DNA of 64,000 bases from Candidatus Cybelea sp. (GTDB taxonomy: Bacteria; Vulcanimicrobiota; Vulcanimicrobiia; Vulcanimicrobiales; Vulcanimicrobiaceae): the NCBI GenBank assembly GCA_036489315.1, contig DASXFZ010000060.1:1-64000 (forward strand), read 5' to 3'. Below the pieces are notes generated by a model, which saw only the letters and a list, made by a program, of their open reading frames with translations, was not told the origin of the DNA and did not search any database. This document shows positions 2,766 through 62,710 of the stretch, one piece after another. A program made the position numbers and the translations under genes. The first letter of the stretch is position 1. Each line of letters opens with the position of its first letter.

Positions 2766-4205
2766 GTGAAGCCAAGAGCAGCGACCCTTTGGGTATGTGC
2801 GGTCGTCATTTTCAGCCTTGCAGCGTGCAGCGGCGGCGCGGCCCCCAACTCGATTCCAGCAAGCTCGATTTCAAAGCAGGCGAACCGATCTCACTCGGCC
2901 GCAACGCACGATTCGGGATCCTTCACGCCGATCCAACACATCGTCCTCATCGTGCAAGAGAACCGGACGATGAATAATCTTTTCGCTACGTTTCCAGGCG
3001 TGACGGGAACGACGATTGGGAAGCGGCTGGTCAACGTCAAAGGGAACCTGAAGGTCGAAAACATCAAGCTCAAAGAGACGAATCTTTTCGTCAAGTCGAA
3101 CCTCAATCACGCGTATTCCGGCTTTTTTACGGCTTGGGACAACGGCAAGATGGACAGCTTCAATAATATCAAACGCGCCTCGGGCGCACATCTTGAAGAC
3201 GCCGCACCGTACCAATACGTCAACCCGTCGGCCATCCAACCGTATTGGGATCTCGCCCGCGAGTGGGGACTCGCCAACGCGATGTTCACCACCCAGGGCA
3301 GCGCGAGCTTCACGGCACACCAGGCGCTGATTCGCGGCGGCACGATGATCGATGCCAAGGACAGTCTCATCGATAACCTGCGGTATTCAACCGACGCCTG
3401 GGGCTGTGACTCGCCCTCCGGATCGAAGACCTCGCTGATCACGACGCAGCTGGTGGTGAAGAAGGCCAAGGGCCCGTTCCCGTGCACCTCCGATTTTCCG
3501 GGATCGGGTACGAACTATCTGACGCTGCGCGACCTAATGGACGACGCCGGCGTGTCCTGGAAGTACTACGCGCCGCAAGTCGGCACGGCGGGCGGAATTT
3601 GGAGCGCGTTCGACGTGATCACTCCGGTCCGCTTCGGACCGGAGTGGGGCACCAATGTCTCGTGGCCCGAGACGAACATTCTCGAAGACATCGGTAACGG
3701 CCAGCTTCCAGCGATGTCGTGGGTAATTCCCAACTCGCAAAACTCCGATCACCCCGGCGAGGGCTCCGATACCGGACCGTCGTGGGTGGCTAGCGTCGTC
3801 AACGCCGTCGGCCAGAGCCAGTATTGGTCTTCGACGGCGATCATCATCACCTGGGACGATTGGGGCGGGTTCTACGATCCGGTTCCGCCGCCGCCGCGCG
3901 ACGATCAGGGAGGGCCCGGGTTCCGCGTCCCGATGATCTTGATCTCGCCATACGCGCGCACGACGTCGTCGAGCCAACCGGGCTATATCTCGCAGACCAC
4001 CTATGAGTTCGGCAGCATCGTGCGTTTCGTGGAAGACACCTTCAGCCTCGGGCGTCTCGGCACGACTGACAGCACCGCGAACAGCATCGACGACATGTTC
4101 GATTTCTATCAGTACCCACGCCAGTTTCAAAGCGTGGGCTCAAAGTATTCACGAAGGTACTTCATGCATCAGAAGCCCTCGCGCATGCCGGTAGACGATA
4201 TCTAG
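2766..4205 (+). CDS. Phosphoesterase-family lipoprotein, subfamily A
   Basis: 479 residues from a GTG start with a strong GGAGGAG site about 10 bases upstream. The signal peptide ends in a lipobox (SLAAC). The catalytic landmarks match the gene to the left: VQENRTMNNLF near residue 65, GSASFTAHQ near 180, WDDWGGFYDPVPPP near 362, and the C-terminal 'MHQKPSRMPVDD' seen across subfamily A. The two adjacent genes are clear tandem duplicates with the same direction. Likely a secreted, metal-dependent phosphoesterase of unknown substrate. Confidence 0.9.
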   Translation: MKPRAATLWVCAVVIFSLAACSGGAAPNSIPASSISKQANRSHSAATHDSGSFTPIQHIVLIVQENRTMNNLFATFPGVTGTTIGKRLVNVKGNLKVENIKLKETNLFVKSNLNHAYSGFFTAWDNGKMDSFNNIKRASGAHLEDAAPYQYVNPSAIQPYWDLAREWGLANAMFTTQGSASFTAHQALIRGGTMIDAKDSLIDNLRYSTDAWGCDSPSGSKTSLITTQLVVKKAKGPFPCTSDFPGSGTNYLTLRDLMDDAGVSWKYYAPQVGTAGGIWSAFDVITPVRFGPEWGTNVSWPETNILEDIGNGQLPAMSWVIPNSQNSDHPGEGSDTGPSWVASVVNAVGQSQYWSSTAIIITWDDWGGFYDPVPPPPRDDQGGPGFRVPMILISPYARTTSSSQPGYISQTTYEFGSIVRFVEDTFSLGRLGTTDSTANSIDDMFDFYQYPRQFQSVGSKYSRRYFMHQKPSRMPVDDI

Positions 4206-43484: not shown

Positions 43485-43541
43485 CCAGTTTCCGGCGTAC
43501 TACACGCGGCAAACTTCGACTCGCAAAAAGCTATATAAATA

Positions 43542-43588
43542 TGGTGGGCGGTATAAGGATTGAACTTATGACCTCTTCCGTGTCAAGG
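43542..43588 (-). other. 3' fragment of tRNA-Val(GAC), likely attachment site (att)
   Basis: Read on the minus strand, this holds an anticodon loop TTGACAC, the 3' anticodon stem GGAAG, variable loop AGGTC, T-arm ATAAG-TTCAATC-CTTAT, 3' acceptor strand ACCGCCC, discriminator A and an encoded CCA. The matching 5' half (GGGCGGT..., D-arm) is missing: upstream bases do not pair. Integration at the 3' end of a tRNA gene leaves just such a fragment at the boundary facing host DNA. Gene content changes here, with a mobile-element-like region to the right. Confidence 0.75.
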
Positions 43589-44108
43589 ATTTTTGGGGTG
43601 AGCCCGACAGGTTCCTTTTCGACCACTTAACGCGCCGAAAAAGCCCATAAAATAAGACTTTCTCGCGTAGGGGGCGGAAGACCCGAGCGTGTATTCTAAC
43701 GAGCCTCCTCGTGAAAATAAGTGGTCAATAAGTGGTCATCCCGCTGAGGGGCGAGCCGGTCTGCAGTTCGTGCTCAACGGGGACCGCGCAATGGCGGACT
43801 ACCTTCAGTGCGTAAACGAGGGTCAGGATTCGAGCACAAGACCTTAAAAGCCGCGAGAGCCTCGGCACGTCTACCGAAGCTCTCGTCAGAACAATCGCCG
43901 AGGCGGAGAAGAATCTTACTAGATTTTTCGGCCTTCTGGCTTACACTCCATCGACCCAACGTCATCCGTTTCCTACCGCATTGGATTGCGGGTTCGGCGG
44001 CGTGGTTGGCTCCATGGTACGGGAGAACCACCACACCGATTGTAGCCTGCAGGAGCGCGTCCGTCAAACCCTTGGTTTACGATTGGCCCCTGTATAGATG
44101 ACCGCCTG
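43589..44108. other. Interval with no supported gene
   Basis: Frames exist on both strands but none has a credible start, ribosome site or protein-like pattern. It contains AAGTGGTC twice in tandem (43723-43738) and its complement GACCACTT near 43620. This is the element end adjacent to the tRNA fragment, where recombination arm sites could lie. Confidence 0.5.
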
Positions 44109-52321: not shown

Positions 52322-53023
52322 TTACTCCAGCCCGAGCCGCTCGAAAACACGGGTGACCTGGACGGCTGTCCACTGCCTACCGTTGAGCGTTTGATGACCT
52401 TCGTCGTTAAGCGCGCGAGCGATTGCACGAAGTGACAGGTTACGACGCGCGAGAGCTTTGACGCGCGGATAGACTTCCTCGGCGTAGGCTTCGTCGGCGC
52501 GCTTGGCATGCATGGCTGCAGCGGCCTTCCCGCCCATCAGGCGCGCTTTGTAGGTCAAGTTCCGGCACTGCGGCAAGCTTGCACCGAGACGGCCGCCACG
52601 GGCCTTGTATGCCGCAAGGGCGGCCCTAGTACGCGCAGAGATGGCCTCGGCCTCGTGTTCTGCTACAGCGGCTAAGATTTGGATGGTCAGCCGGTTCGCG
52701 GTTGGATTGTCGCAAGCTACGAACTCGACACCGGACTTCATAAGCTCGGCGGTGACGTAGACACTGCGCGTCAGGCGGTCGAGCTTGGCGATGACGAGTG
52801 TGGCCTTCGTCCGCTTCGCATGCCGGATGGCCTTCCGTAGCTCAGGGCGGTTGTCGAGGTCGTCGCGATGGCTGGACTCGACCTCAGTGTATTCACCGAT
52901 TAGTTCACAGCCTGTGGACTGGACGTGCTGCTTGACTGCGGCCTCCTGACCCTCAAGACCGAGACGAGAACGACCTTGTCTCTCCGTCGAACAGCGGTAG
53001 TATGCGACCAATCGACACTTCAT
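52322..53023 (-). CDS. Serine recombinase (resolvase/invertase family)
   Basis: 233 residues from the ATG at 53023, which begins directly with the catalytic domain: 'AYYRCSTERQGRSRLGLEGQ' with the nucleophile Ser in RCST near residue 11, 'IAKLDRLTRSV' and 'EHEAEAISARTRAAL'. The C-terminal part has a short helix-turn-helix ('SLRAIARALNDEGHQTLNGR', 'WTAVQVTRVFERLGLE'). This size is that of resolvases and invertases, not large phage integrases. The start codon lies inside the right arm of an inverted repeat. Confidence 0.92.
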   Translation of the reverse strand: MKCRLVAYYRCSTERQGRSRLGLEGQEAAVKQHVQSTGCELIGEYTEVESSHRDDLDNRPELRKAIRHAKRTKATLVIAKLDRLTRSVYVTAELMKSGVEFVACDNPTANRLTIQILAAVAEHEAEAISARTRAALAAYKARGGRLGASLPQCRNLTYKARLMGGKAAAAMHAKRADEAYAEEVYPRVKALARRNLSLRAIARALNDEGHQTLNGRQWTAVQVTRVFERLGLE

Positions 53024-53030
53024 AGAAGGA
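53013..53030 (-). repeat. Right arm of an inverted repeat around the recombinase gene
   Basis: TCCTTCTATGAAGTGTCG on the minus strand, the partner of 52088-52105. It covers the recombinase start codon. The pair encloses about 940 bases holding only the recombinase gene. Confidence 0.75.
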
Positions 53031-53137
53031 CTGTAACAAATCATAGACGTTCGGTCAAGGTTTGTTTCGGCACTGAAACCGGCTAAATCCAGTCTAAAGT
53101 CCCGCGCCACCTACTTGTGTCGCGAGTCGAGAGCTAG

Positions 53138-54621: not shown

Positions 54622-54698
54622 CATAGGTGGATTCGGAAACGGGGCCGCTGGAAGAAAAGTAAGCGGGACTTTTTCAAACTGACGGTAACCGCTTGACG

Positions 54699-55136
54699 GT
54701 GATAGTCGAGCAAAGCGGCAAGCCTTTCGACCTTGACGTGTTTCTGGCGCGTCCAATGATGGCGCACCTGGCTACCGCTTCGGCAGATGGACCCCGCGAG
54801 TCTCCGGTCTGGTTTCTTTGGGAAGATGGCGCAGTTTGGCTCGTCGGTACGTCGAGCGATAGCTTTCCTAGGCGGATTCGGGACGATACACGATGCGCTA
54901 TCGGCTTTGTAGACTTTCAACTTGAGCGCGGCCTCTTATTGCACGTCGGAATGCGCGGGACGGCGACTGTAGAACCTTTAGATACCGCGCGGCTGCATCG
55001 TCTGCTTCAACGGTACCTCGGCGCAGAGGAGAAGTGGAACCCGGAGTTCGCGCGGGCCGTTATCTATCCGCTCGACCTCATGGTTCGCTTCGTTCCGCAC
55101 TCTGTTGTCGCGAGAGACCAATCCTACTTCCTATGA
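54699..55136 (+). CDS. PNPOx-like (split-barrel flavin-binding) protein, copy 1
   Basis: 145 residues from a GTG at 54699 that aligns with the ATG of the near-identical copy at 56282; a TTG two codons upstream is possible. The split-barrel pattern is 'LARPMMAHLATASADGPRES', 'PVWFLWEDGAVWLVGTSSDS' and 'RCAIGFVDFQLERGLLLHVG'. Members bind FMN or F420 and oxidise or reduce small molecules; the substrate is not known. Confidence 0.85.
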   Translation: MIVEQSGKPFDLDVFLARPMMAHLATASADGPRESPVWFLWEDGAVWLVGTSSDSFPRRIRDDTRCAIGFVDFQLERGLLLHVGMRGTATVEPLDTARLHRLLQRYLGAEEKWNPEFARAVIYPLDLMVRFVPHSVVARDQSYFL

Positions 55137-56281: not shown

Positions 56282-56767
56282 ATGATTCTCGAACGAAGCG
56301 GCGAGCCATTTGACCTCGATGCCTTTCTAGCGCGGCCGTTAATGGCGCACCTCGCAACGGCATCGGCGGACGGCCCGCGTGAGTCTCCGGTGTGGTTTCT
56401 TTGGGAGGACGGTGCTGTCTGGCTAGTCGGTACGTCGAGCGATAGCTTCCCGAAACGGGTTAAAGATGAACCGCGCTGCGCTCTTGGCTTCGTTGACTTC
56501 CATCTTGACCGGGGCGTCTTGCTGCATGTCGGAATGCGGGGAACCGCGACCGTAGAGAAGCTGGACGAGGCTCGCCTATATCGGCTGCTTGGGCGTTACC
56601 TCGGGGAAGAAAAGGACTGGAATCCGGCATTTGTGCGGAGCGTAATCGAGAACCTCGACCTCATGGTACGCTTTACACCGCAGTCTGTGGTGATGAGGGA
56701 CCAATCCTACTTTCTACGGACGATGAGCTACCCTGGGCAGGTGGCGTCCCCTGAAGCGTCCGAGTAA
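56282..56767 (+). CDS. PNPOx-like (split-barrel flavin-binding) protein, copy 2
   Basis: 161 residues. Nearly identical to the protein at 54699 over 145 residues ('LMAHLATASADGPRESPVWF', 'RLYRLLGRYLGEEKDWNPAF') with a short extra tail 'MSYPGQVASPEASE'. Probable flavin- or deazaflavin-dependent oxidoreductase. Divergence from copy 1 at many synonymous-looking sites shows that the duplication is not very recent. Confidence 0.87.
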   Translation: MILERSGEPFDLDAFLARPLMAHLATASADGPRESPVWFLWEDGAVWLVGTSSDSFPKRVKDEPRCALGFVDFHLDRGVLLHVGMRGTATVEKLDEARLYRLLGRYLGEEKDWNPAFVRSVIENLDLMVRFTPQSVVMRDQSYFLRTMSYPGQVASPEASE

Positions 56768-59464: not shown

Positions 59465-59984
59465 CTTAGGCCTAACGGCGTGCGAAGGCGCGCGGTTGAC
59501 AGAAGCATTCGAATCACGTATGATTTTTGGCTGATTCCTTGACTTTCTATCGAAAGTATGAGACGATTATTGTGGAGGGGCTAATCGGGCTAGAGCCCAA
59601 CCGACTTTTGTCGCACCCCTATAATCGAAGGTCCCAAGTCGAGCAGCAGTGCCCGGCTTTGTTTGTTGCTCAGGAGCAATGCACTTGAGGTGTAACGTTT
59701 GCTCGTGCTCGCGAACGAAGCCGGTTGCAACTCCTTACTGGCCTGCCCTTTGATTCGGCTCAAGGGTAGAGAGAGCGCCGCGCAACCGTTAAGACTTGCG
59801 CGAAGGACCAGCTGGAACGGGGCCGATGTTCCCTCCACTCATCGGGGCGAGTCAGAAGCGGAACTGGAGGCGTGTCGGGTTTTAGGCCCTTCGGTTCCGC
59901 TCACAGCAACACTACGACGCCGTTAGTTACGGACGTTCGTTCCTTCCTATTTACCACGCGCAAAGCGCGAGGGGTTCATGCTAA
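59465..59984. other. Interval with no supported gene
   Basis: Open frames occur on both strands, but none has a start signal or protein-like pattern. GAGGGG near 59970 belongs to the next gene. Confidence 0.4.
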
Positions 59985-60257
59985 ATGATTGACGACTTCC
60001 AGAAGTACACCGGATACACCAAGACGCTGGAGCTAGTTTCTCTATTCCTAGAGCGACGAGGCTATTCGTTCGTAGGAGTGCCGACGCAGCACAGTTACCA
60101 CAAGAACTTCATCGCCACGGACGGCGTCGCTTCGGTCATCGTCAGCATCTATAACACCGGCGCGCTCGACGTTCCCGGCTCTAGCGGCGGAAGACTTCGG
60201 ACAATCCTTGAGAGCTTCCGTTCTATCGTCGGTCCAAAACCCAAAGGTGCGAAGTAA
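59985..60257 (+). CDS. Hypothetical protein, start of the replication-type operon
   Basis: 90 residues with GAGGGG about ten bases upstream. 'TKTLELVSLFLERRGYSFVG' and 'FIATDGVASVIVSIYNTGAL'. No domain known. The following two genes are packed closely, at 3-base spacing and then overlapping. Confidence 0.6.
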   Translation: MIDDFQKYTGYTKTLELVSLFLERRGYSFVGVPTQHSYHKNFIATDGVASVIVSIYNTGALDVPGSSGGRLRTILESFRSIVGPKPKGAK

Positions 60258-60260
60258 AGC

Positions 60261-60455
60261 ATGGACTCAAAAGAGGCGTTCTTCGCCAGGCTCGACCATG
60301 CGATTCTTTCAGGAGAAGGTTCAGGGAACATCGGAAAGCGGTTCGGCGTGAATCCCACGATGGTACGCCGCCGTCGCTCTACCCTTCGCAAGTCCGGTTA
60401 CCTCATCAATATTCGCTGCAATGAGGCGCGAAACAACAATGCCAACAAAAGCTAA
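60261..60455 (+). CDS. Small helix-turn-helix protein
   Basis: 64 residues. 'SGNIGKRFGVNPTMVRRRRS' is a helix-turn-helix followed by 'TLRKSGYLINIRC'. Probably a DNA-binding regulator. The 3' end overlaps the next gene by 17 bases. Confidence 0.6.
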   Translation: MDSKEAFFARLDHAILSGEGSGNIGKRFGVNPTMVRRRRSTLRKSGYLINIRCNEARNNNANKS

Positions 60456-60855
60456 GTTTACACCCCGGCACTTCATCTACGCAGTCGCTCCGGCGCTGTG
60501 GCAGCACCCCAGCTTGGACCTCAATGCAAGAGGGGTCGCTACCGTGCTGCTTATGCATCGCAATGCCGAGAACGGCGGCTGCTTTCCTGAGTACGAAACC
60601 ATCGCGCTCGAAGTCGGCCTGTCGAAGAGTTCCCGGCATACAGTCAAGGAGGCACTTCAGGAGCTAAAGGAGGCGGGACTCATAGACTGGGTGCGGCACG
60701 GTCGCGCGAACCGCTACGACCTTAGCGGTCTGCTGGCTTTGTGTGACCAGAAGCTTTTGTCGGCCGCAGAGGTCGAGAAGGCCGTTGAGGCCGCCAAAGC
60801 CGACCCGAGACATACGAAGGTAAAGGCCCCTAAGTCTCTTCCAAGGGCTGCGTGA
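60439..60855 (+). CDS. Winged-helix replication-initiator-like protein
   Basis: 138 residues from the ATG at 60439. 'MPTKAKFTPRHFIYAVAPAL' then a winged helix: 'NGGCFPEYETIALEVGLSKS', 'SRHTVKEALQELKEAGLIDW', wing 'VRHGRANRYDL'. The same fold is used by plasmid and phage replication or helix-turn-helix proteins. Its stop codon runs into the first of a series of 22-base palindromes, which it may bind. Confidence 0.72.
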   Translation: MPTKAKFTPRHFIYAVAPALWQHPSLDLNARGVATVLLMHRNAENGGCFPEYETIALEVGLSKSSRHTVKEALQELKEAGLIDWVRHGRANRYDLSGLLALCDQKLLSAAEVEKAVEAAKADPRHTKVKAPKSLPRAA

Positions 60856-61146
60856 TGTGTCTCCAGAGACACATCTTCGATGTGCTCCACCAGACACATC
60901 TGATGTGTCTCGGCAGACACGCTAACAGAAGAACACTTAAGAACACTTAACACAGAGCAACAGTTTTCTAAATATATTTATTATACGTCTTGGAGCCTGA
61001 GAGAACTCAGGCGAGGATGACTTAGATTTAGAGACTGTGATTCTGTTCAGGCCTGTCGGCCTGGGATGTTTAGGTGTTGGTACTGTCCGGCTAAGGCCGG
61101 ACAACATAAAGAAACAGAAGTGGCGATGTGTCTCTCCAGGCACATC
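60854..61146. repeat. Palindromic 22-base repeats and AT-rich segment: candidate origin or operator
   Basis: Copies at 60854, 60879, 60902 and 61125. The first is perfect (GATGTGTCTC and GAGACACATC about a CA centre); the others keep GATGTG and CACATC or part of it. Between them lie an AT-rich stretch (60960-60988) and three small hairpins (CCTGAG/CTCAGG near 60998; GGCC/GGCC near 61050; GTCCGGC/GCCGGAC at 61085-61102). The set follows a winged-helix gene and precedes the gene at 61169. Confidence 0.65.
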
Positions 61147-61168
61147 AGCACCAAACAGAAGGAACAGC

Positions 61169-61771
61169 ATGAACAATCTCATCAACGTCAGCAACTACTC
61201 CAGCGAGGAGCTTCTCAAGCGCCGCATCGGCCCGGACGGGACCCCCTGGCAAAGCGAAGACGGCGCAGAACTCGATGAGAACGACGCCTGGTTAGCTGCA
61301 GCAGAAGCCTTGCGCCGAGTTGGCGGCGACCCCCCGAATAACGGTGCGTTAGACAAGCTCGTCGAGGAGCACGGCCCGGCAAAGGTCTGGTTTCACGCAG
61401 TCTGGTTCCGGCCCCGAGTCGCATCAATGAAGAAGCCGCCGGAGAATCCCGTTGGTACCTTCACCGCGAGTGTACGTCAGGACTATTCTATCAGTACACG
61501 ATGGGCGAGATTACCCTTTAGTCGTATCCGGCACGGCTGCTTCAATGAGGCGCAGCGAGCGCAAATCCCCACGACAACCTCTGCGTCAGACTGGATTGCA
61601 TGGCTCAAGTCATTCGAAGGAACTCCTGACGACGTACCCGACGATGTACGCGCGGACGTAAAGGCGGAGATACTTGCTGCGGACTTTGGGCTGGTTCCAA
61701 AGCGGCTCGACTCCCGCGAACAGACTAGCAACGTCTTCGAAGATGGCCTCGACGATGACATACCGTTTTAA
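61169..61771 (+). CDS. Hypothetical protein after the palindrome cluster
   Basis: 200 residues from the ATG at 61169 with AAGGAA upstream; the frame is open further left without coding character. 'SEELLKRRIGPDGTPWQSED', 'LVEEHGPAKVWFHAVWFRPR' and an acidic C-terminus 'NVFEDGLDDDIPF' that resembles the tails of single-strand-binding proteins. This last point is only a resemblance. Likely an element-encoded accessory replication protein. Confidence 0.6.
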   Translation: MNNLINVSNYSSEELLKRRIGPDGTPWQSEDGAELDENDAWLAAAEALRRVGGDPPNNGALDKLVEEHGPAKVWFHAVWFRPRVASMKKPPENPVGTFTASVRQDYSISTRWARLPFSRIRHGCFNEAQRAQIPTTTSASDWIAWLKSFEGTPDDVPDDVRADVKAEILAADFGLVPKRLDSREQTSNVFEDGLDDDIPF

Positions 61772-61934
61772 AGGCCTCTCGACCGCCGAAATCGTTAAGG
61801 AGCTTGAGGTTCAACGATGTCTCGACGACCGCGTTGCGGCCGAGCTAGAGGTGGAACTGTTTCGGCGCTGCGGGACTCTGTTTGCGGAACCGGGGCTGAG
61901 TGACCTCGAACTGATTTTCGGTAAGTCGGGTTAG
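61743..61934 (+). CDS. Hypothetical small protein
   Basis: 63 residues from the ATG at 61743, or 59 from that at 61755. 'LSTAEIVKELEVQRCLDDRV' is helical. It overlaps the end of the previous gene by 29 bases, as expected in an operon. Function unknown. Confidence 0.5.
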   Translation: MASTMTYRFKGLSTAEIVKELEVQRCLDDRVAAELEVELFRRCGTLFAEPGLSDLELIFGKSG

Positions 61935-62129
61935 CTCGATTCCCTCCTGCGCGACTAGACCAGACTTCCGACCGTGGCCGCGTAGCCACACGACGAGGAT
62001 ACCGATTCCGTACCCTTTGCGGCCGCTGGGGCGCTTCAAGACGGTTCGCGGTGCTTATCTCAAGCGAACTAGTAAAAAACACCTGTGGCTTGTTTTACCA
62101 GTAACTACCGAAATGACCAAGGACTAAAT

Positions 62130-62627
62130 ATGAAATCCAAAACCATCCCCCCGATGGTCCGATGCGCCTATCGCTCTCGCCGAACGGGGCAGTGCATCAA
62201 GACTTTCCCGGCTCGCGGTCCGAAGCAGTACTGCCGTCCGGGTCACCGAGTCCGGGCCTCTCACGAGCGGAACAGGCGTCACCTAAAAACCGATGCCTTC
62301 CGCCACAGCGTTATCGAGCGAGATGGCGGCTGTGTCAGAAAGCGACCGTCGCAGGACGATTGGGACAATGGTGGCGACTGCGCTGGAAAGCTTTTCGTCC
62401 GAATCGTAGACCCCAAAAGGGGTCGAACATTGGAAAACGTCGAGACGCTCTGCGCTCGCCACTTCGGAATGAAAAGCAACGAGCAGTTTCGCGACCGGGT
62501 CGGCCCCGAGGTTCACCGTGCGAAAAAGAGAGTCCAAGGCAGCAACTACCTTACGATGAAACTCCTTCGCCTAAAGATGTCCCGCATTTATCATCGCGAC
62601 AAGAAGAATCCCATAGACTATTTGTAA
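62130..62627 (+). CDS. HNH-like zinc protein, probably degenerate nuclease
   Basis: 165 residues from ATG 62130 with AAGGA upstream. Cys residues in 'RCAYRSRRTGQCIKTFP' and 'KQYCRPGHRVRASHERNRRH' suggest zinc ligands, and 'VIERDGGCVRKRPS' then 'VDPKRGRTLENVETLCARH' have the outline of an HNH fold. The catalytic His pair usual in the middle is replaced by 'FVRIVDP', so nuclease activity is doubtful. Confidence 0.6.
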   Translation: MKSKTIPPMVRCAYRSRRTGQCIKTFPARGPKQYCRPGHRVRASHERNRRHLKTDAFRHSVIERDGGCVRKRPSQDDWDNGGDCAGKLFVRIVDPKRGRTLENVETLCARHFGMKSNEQFRDRVGPEVHRAKKRVQGSNYLTMKLLRLKMSRIYHRDKKNPIDYL

Positions 62628-62710
62628 AAGTGTATACAGGAGTGTCCCTTTCTTTGAGAGGGTTTAAACTCTCATATCAAGACACGGCGACCTTTGTCGC
62701 AATCCATTCC

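Follow-up and report, generated by a model that had tools for sequence, protein, structure and literature searches.

The initiator O of phage lambda is split into domains, of which the N-terminal one binds DNA. The lambda origin is described as a series of nearly palindromic iterons followed by an A+T-rich tract, and it lies in the middle of the initiator gene (PMC5043065, PMC7466680). For the Rep protein of the staphylococcal plasmid pSK41 it is reported that the N-terminal domain (NTD) binds boxes inside the rep gene, that the origin encodes a linker which can be dispensed with, and that the C-terminal domain (CTD) interacts with the primase DnaG (PMC5703833). The NTD of the staphylococcal hybrid initiator of pPR9 belongs to the helix-turn-helix family pfam13730 and differs from that of pSK41 together with the origin (PMC5703833). 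PLE, a phage satellite of Vibrio cholerae, is described as an integrative element with its own RepA_N initiator and semi-palindromic iterons in a non-coding region (PMC7145576).

The locus studied here is located in a stretch of 64,000 nt, called the window, from the MAG of an uncultured soil bacterium (assembly of 3.09 Mb). Judged from its sequence and by analogy with the systems above, the region 60854-61168 is probably a lambda-O/RepA_N-style iteron origin of a 23.7-kb integrative element; this origin would be flanked by the two parts of a split initiator and contains a strongly folding segment. The origin type itself is already known.

The integrative element

The element extends from 43541 to 67220 between 49-bp attachment (att) repeats. 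Direct repeats at a tRNA gene and a tyrosine integrase, as expected for a tRNA-targeted element, were both found: the gene for tRNA-Val(gac) is located at L011:3173-3247 (minus strand), and the integrase gene adjoins the tRNA end (L011:1813-3033, minus strand; phrog_1, E 3e-62). The G+C content of the element is 55.0%, compared to 61.0% and 64.3% in the flanks. An 84% identical integrase was identified at the same tRNA in G014:C114, with syntenic chromosome beyond it. The following features delimit the element and surround the putative replication genes:

43541-43589, no strand: left attachment repeat, copy of the 3' part of tRNA-Val (exact 49-nt direct repeat)
67172-67220 (L011:3172-3220), outside the window: right attachment repeat (exact 49-nt direct repeat)
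59985-60257, plus strand: small conserved gene preceding the replication slot (homologs in G016 and G014:C135)
60261-60455, plus strand: small basic ORF (from the ORF list; a similar-looking short ORF before the G003 initiator, by eye)
62130-62627, plus strand: conserved gene downstream of the putative initiator (G029 has a 45% identical homolog behind its fused initiator)

The small basic ORF had no match in Pfam or PHROGs. A PHROGs scan of 19 of the 28 listed element ORFs revealed no phage structural or capsid-hijacking genes. Further genes of the element encode a STAS protein, a small serine recombinase (52322-53110) and, in two similar copies (54693-55136 and 56282-56767), a small protein; both copies resemble the same G016 gene. 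Outside the element, the left part of the window (1250-34630) contains at least seven large ORFs that are related and have repeated motifs in common; by eye, they are phosphoesterase-like.

Iterons, A+T-rich tract and folded segment behind a winged-helix gene

A replication-type winged-helix (wHTH) gene had been predicted directly before the repeats, and the profile searches agree with this. The protein encoded by 60439-60855 matches HTH_36 (PF13730) with E 2e-8 and 34.2 bits, above the curated cut-off of 25, and its best PHROGs matches are phage replication initiators. The match to phrog_270 (replication initiation, E 9e-13) covers only the N-terminal part of the family (positions 23-123 of 383), and the protein, which has about 40 residues after the wing, ends where long initiators would continue. 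Neither Phage_rep_O (PF04492) nor RepA_N (PF06970) was detected in it at E up to 1, and its profile retrieved mostly generic winged-helix regulators among the solved structures. The features of the locus are:

60439-60855, plus strand: N-terminal half of the split initiator, presumed iteron reader (PF13730, phrog_270)
60854-60875: iteron 1, near-perfect palindrome GATGTGTCTCCAGAGACACATC, starting within the wHTH stop codon (repeat search, symmetry count)
60879-60900: iteron 2 (repeat search, symmetry count)
60902-60923: iteron 3 (repeat search, symmetry count)
60945-60986: A+T-rich tract, presumed unwinding element (40-mer A+T scan)
60953-61048: nested hairpin enclosing the A+T-rich tract, with a 7-bp inner stem at 60995-61012 (RNA and DNA folds)
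61048-61064: second hairpin, CAGGCC/GGCCTG (fold, sequence)
61085-61102: third hairpin, GTCCGGC/GCCGGAC (fold, sequence)
61125-61146: iteron 4, separated from the start of gene X by 22 nt (repeat search, symmetry count)
61169-61771, plus strand: gene X, C-terminal part of the split initiator and presumed recruiter of the replication machinery (profile, hhalign, BLASTP)

Iteron origins have at least three repeats adjoining the gene of a DNA-binding domain, and here four candidate iterons were found directly after the HTH_36 gene. The repeat search recovered exactly the four 22-base copies named in the original prediction, each 22 bp long and with a spacing of 25, 23 and 223. Iteron 1 consists of 10-bp arms around CA and starts at the second base of the stop codon (60853-60855). 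The copy that had been called perfect is in fact near-perfect, with 10 of 11 symmetric pairs, and iterons 2, 3 and 4 have 6, 6 and 8 of 11, respectively, so that one of the iterons is near-perfect, one is good and two are half-degenerate. The poor symmetry of iterons 2 and 3 counts against the origin interpretation.

With up to three mismatches, the palindrome consensus was found at two sites in the 64-kb window (60854 and 61125; 0.00 expected), and these remained the only sites in the whole 3.09-Mb assembly. In a combined palindrome-plus-repeat statistic, restricted to even-length palindromes, the region 60439-61771 contained four copies, and three copies were never reached in 200 dinucleotide shuffles. 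DnaA boxes (TTWTNCACA) were absent from the 64-kb window.

An A+T-rich tract adjoins the iterons, as in known iteron origins. The three top A+T 40-mers of the entire 23.7-kb element start at 60945-60947, and the predicted AT-rich segment is therefore real. The wHTH gene and X are separated by 313 non-coding bases, of which 60924-61168 fold with z-scores of -5.56 as RNA and -5.98 as DNA; none of 200 shuffles folded as well, which bears out the several hairpins that had been expected here. The main feature of the fold is the nested hairpin, the outer arms of which enclose the A+T-rich tract and the inner stem. A hairpin with a CGGCTAAGGCCG core is located before X in the window (61085-61102) and before the next gene in G003 (L008 ~1352-1367).

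Gene X and its fused single-gene relatives

The reading frame of X differs from that of the wHTH gene, and an origin inside one continuous initiator gene was thus not found in the window; in the three genomes G003, G016 and G029 the putative origin does lie inside one such gene. Searches of X against Pfam, PHROGs and NCBIfam gave no match. Among 98 related genomes, X identified a gene in G014 (E 9e-53) and, in G003, an open frame of 440 aa (E 5e-6), which encodes one protein with a winged helix, a long linker and an X-like C-terminus (BLASTP of X, E 4e-8 over 113 aa). A profile of X and the G014 and G003 sequences also retrieved G016 and G029, where the homologues are long single genes, giving a total of five genomes out of the 149 of this phylum. 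The relationship was checked independently with a profile of the three fused C-termini only (G029, G003 and G016), which was run against the 149 genomes. It recovered X of the window (E 6.5e-8) and of G014 (E 1.3e-9), with G129:C345 as a sixth match (E 0.0096). An hhalign comparison of X with the fused C-termini resulted in a probability of 95.7, and by these profile comparisons X and the C-terminal domain of the putative fused initiators in G003, G016 and G029 are homologous. That the gene behind the repeats would be the second half of the initiator was no part of the original prediction.

By eye, the fused C-termini have a YxxxAVxxxW-like stretch in common, the window version of which is FTASVRQDY and which is reminiscent of the YxxxIxxxW motif of DnaD-type domains. 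X contains about 75 residues beyond the domain common to the fused proteins. Structures predicted for the X domain had pLDDT values of 51 and 47, and the C-terminal profile gave only a chance match (E 7.1) against solved structures. No viral or phage relatives were found in IMG/VR with wHTH, X, A2 and A6 as queries, nor were relatives of the G029 C-terminus found in phage records.

The N-terminal parts are more loosely related. The HTH_36 cut-off was passed by the window, G003 and G029, and the N-terminus of G016 had no Pfam match and was recognized by phrog_270 only (4e-4). PF04492 was detected in G029 alone, as a weak match (E 0.084). BLASTP of the window wHTH protein against the fused G003 protein gave no match, and hhalign against the fused N-termini gave a weak probability of 41.6. 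This weak similarity counts against the interpretation as a split initiator with its origin.

Iterons were identified right after the winged-helix part in all three fused genes, with three copies of TGTCGGAAAATCCGACA in G003 (spacing 24/24), five copies in G016 (spacing 23/22/24/36) and four copies in G029 (spacing 23/23/46). The search for the motif near homologs, which had been proposed as a check, therefore showed that the repeats recur in the same place in the fused relatives while their sequence is specific to each element, the window, G003, G016 and G029 each having their own version. Symmetric pairs amounted to 7 of 8 in G003 and 8 of 9 in G029; the 3 of 9 in G016 count against an origin of this type. 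Since the copies in G016 and G029 lie in differing reading frames, the repeated unit is DNA and not peptide, which points to selection on the DNA.

G003 and G016 were scored by the repeat statistic without the palindrome filter. The observed repeat score was reached by none of 200 shuffles for the window, likewise with the unfiltered statistic, by one of 200 for G003 and by none of 200 each for G016 and G029. Two of four further, more distant HTH_36 loci also have four such copies each (0/200 shuffles each): G028, with the repeats in L004, and G053, where GTGGGGG/CCCCCAC palindromes are located just downstream of the HTH_36 gene (L005 2254-2346). The loci G003:C42 and G014:C17 had no repeat excess (score reached by 131 and 110 of 200 shuffles, respectively). 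When 107 tiles of 1300 nt, including the targets, were ranked by their repeats, the four targets took ranks 1, 3, 7 and 9. Repeats by themselves are therefore not rare, and the case for an origin rests on place, form and homology jointly. The second rank was taken by a repeat family in L025 (6525-6758).

The top A+T 40-mers were also located relative to the iterons. In locus coordinates, the top 40-mer of the window starts at 509, with iteron 3 ending near 485, and those of G003 and G016 start at 361 and 483, with the iterons ending near 359 and 484, respectively. In G029 the top 40-mer starts at 492, ~90 nt past the iterons (end near 403), and the second-ranked one, starting at 385, adjoins them. 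The presence of three to five iterons of their own sequence after the wHTH part in the three fused relatives, followed by an A+T-rich tract, supports the predicted iteron origin. The G003 element is found in G003:C13 (L026 3574-15341); since its 21-bp repeat occurs at 3626 and 15321 and starts in tRNA-Glu, this element is ~11.7 kb long and has a different integrase and site.

G014 is the only other genome found in which X stands alone. The G014 X has its own start and is 49% identical to X of the window, and the DNA upstream of it shows a similar layout of A+T-rich tract and nested hairpin (z -2.79, 2 of 200 shuffles as good). A different palindrome, GAACTGTCCCACAGACAGTTC (L007:157-177), with a single copy in the bin, is located just upstream of X at the place aligned with iteron 4. 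Because the contig begins at this palindrome, the winged-helix gene and further iterons are not visible. Searches by contig overlap and with HTH_36, the 59985 gene and the element's own palindrome did not recover the left half of G014:C114 from the bin, and the window is therefore the single complete split case. G014:C135 (L049 6460-9254) was considered as the missing left half and rejected: it is a second G014 element with the same upstream genes, in which a primase-like gene replaces the initiator. The match of the latter to primases is weak (phrog_5362, E 4e-4; AEP-TOTE, E 0.0097, below cut-off).

The 59985-type gene is found upstream of the fused initiator in G016 (74% identity), and a 72% homolog precedes the primase-like gene in G014:C135. 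The DNA after this primase-like gene resembles, by eye, the start of the small gene after X in G014:C114. As an initiator in one case and a primase-like gene in the other occupy it, the slot, which extends from the 59985-type gene to the small-gene block, holds different replication-like modules, which suggests that replication modules are exchanged between elements.

Proposed mechanism and comparison with known systems

Palindromic sites suit a dimeric wHTH protein, and 22 nt separate copy 4 from the start of X. This would also fit an operator, with no origin at this place, through which the winged-helix protein would repress either its own transcript or transcription into X. Such a role is unlikely, as none of the copies lies upstream of the wHTH gene and three are located at its 3' end or beyond, the repeats of three relatives are inside the coding frame, and in every case the repeats are followed by an A+T-rich tract; as weak evidence, no sigma-70-like site was found in 59900-62700. 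The autoregulatory operator, which the original prediction had named beside an iteron origin, is thus unsupported as the main role of copies that lie downstream of the wHTH gene and, in three relatives, within the coding frame. Copy 4 could nevertheless act as an operator.

An initiator gene broken by insertion and decayed, leaving two ORFs around an old and non-functional origin, would be in line with the fused homologs and with the low number of relatives (5 of 149 genomes). However, X is also standalone in G014, with its own start and at 49% identity, so this form has persisted through divergence. Moreover, a ribosome-binding-like sequence precedes the ATG of both X genes (by eye) and the DNA between the two ORFs is folded far more strongly than its shuffles, making decay very unlikely. 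The strong folding (z -5.56 as RNA), together with the different frames of wHTH and X, could instead mean that the segment between the halves functions chiefly as RNA and in this way joins or regulates the halves, be it as an intron or bypass element or as an antisense RNA for copy control. X has its own start, however, most of the segment is accounted for by the iterons and the A+T-rich tract, and no Rfam family was found in it at the gathering score, with chance-level matches only (E >= 0.3), which leaves an RNA function highly improbable.

The repeats, the tract, the folding, the homology of X, the iterons in the relatives and the boundaries of the element were computed from the sequence. 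For the iteron origin that is preferred here, a mechanism can be proposed by analogy. The winged-helix protein (60439-60855), probably as a dimer, would bind the palindromic iterons, and several bound copies would bend the DNA and cause the A+T-rich tract (around 60945-60986) to open. The host helicase or primase would then be recruited by protein X (61169-61771), and the element would be replicated after excision. In the related elements, one polypeptide would combine these activities, with the iterons within the DNA coding for its linker; in the window, the gene would have been divided into two cistrons and the linker dropped, by which the origin became non-coding and gained hairpins. The two halves would have to meet at the origin, and the ~40 residues after the wing of the wHTH protein or the ~75 residues of X after the common domain may provide the contact. 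More tentatively, the initiator might consist of two subunits, with its DNA-reading and machinery-recruiting halves as separate proteins flanking the origin; once melted, the structured segment with its nested hairpin might offer primase or helicase an additional place to load, and the C-terminal half might represent a new recruiter family in integrative elements of Eremiobacterota. This combination is regarded as possible rather than probable.

No described case of the split arrangement or of the C-terminal family was found in the literature, mostly at the level of listings, and no study of an origin or of element replication in this phylum was found among titles and abstract openings. If true, the locus would be a natural split in which a covalent link between origin binding and recruitment of the machinery is not needed, and wHTH and X would be a ready pair for testing the need for this link. 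The locus is also a candidate replicon for the phylum and points to a C-terminal family that has no match in Pfam, PHROGs and NCBIfam.

Like the element in the window, PLE is described as an integrative element with its own initiator and semi-palindromic iterons in non-coding DNA, but its initiator is a single protein, its integrase is a large serine integrase and it requires a helper phage, whereas no helper is known for the window element. Compared to RepA_N initiators such as that of pSK41, the window has two genes instead of one, no RepA_N match and an X that is not matched to a solved structure by sequence. The NTD of pPR9, as described, and the wHTH protein of the window belong to the same Pfam family (pfam13730). 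Unlike in lambda O, the gene is split and the putative origin is intergenic, the wHTH protein has no Phage_rep_O match, no lambda P gene was recognized, and the C-terminal half (X) belongs to no known family by sequence. The two have in common an N-terminal DNA-binding part and, as far as the lambda origin is described in the sources cited, several nearly palindromic iterons and an adjacent A+T-rich tract.
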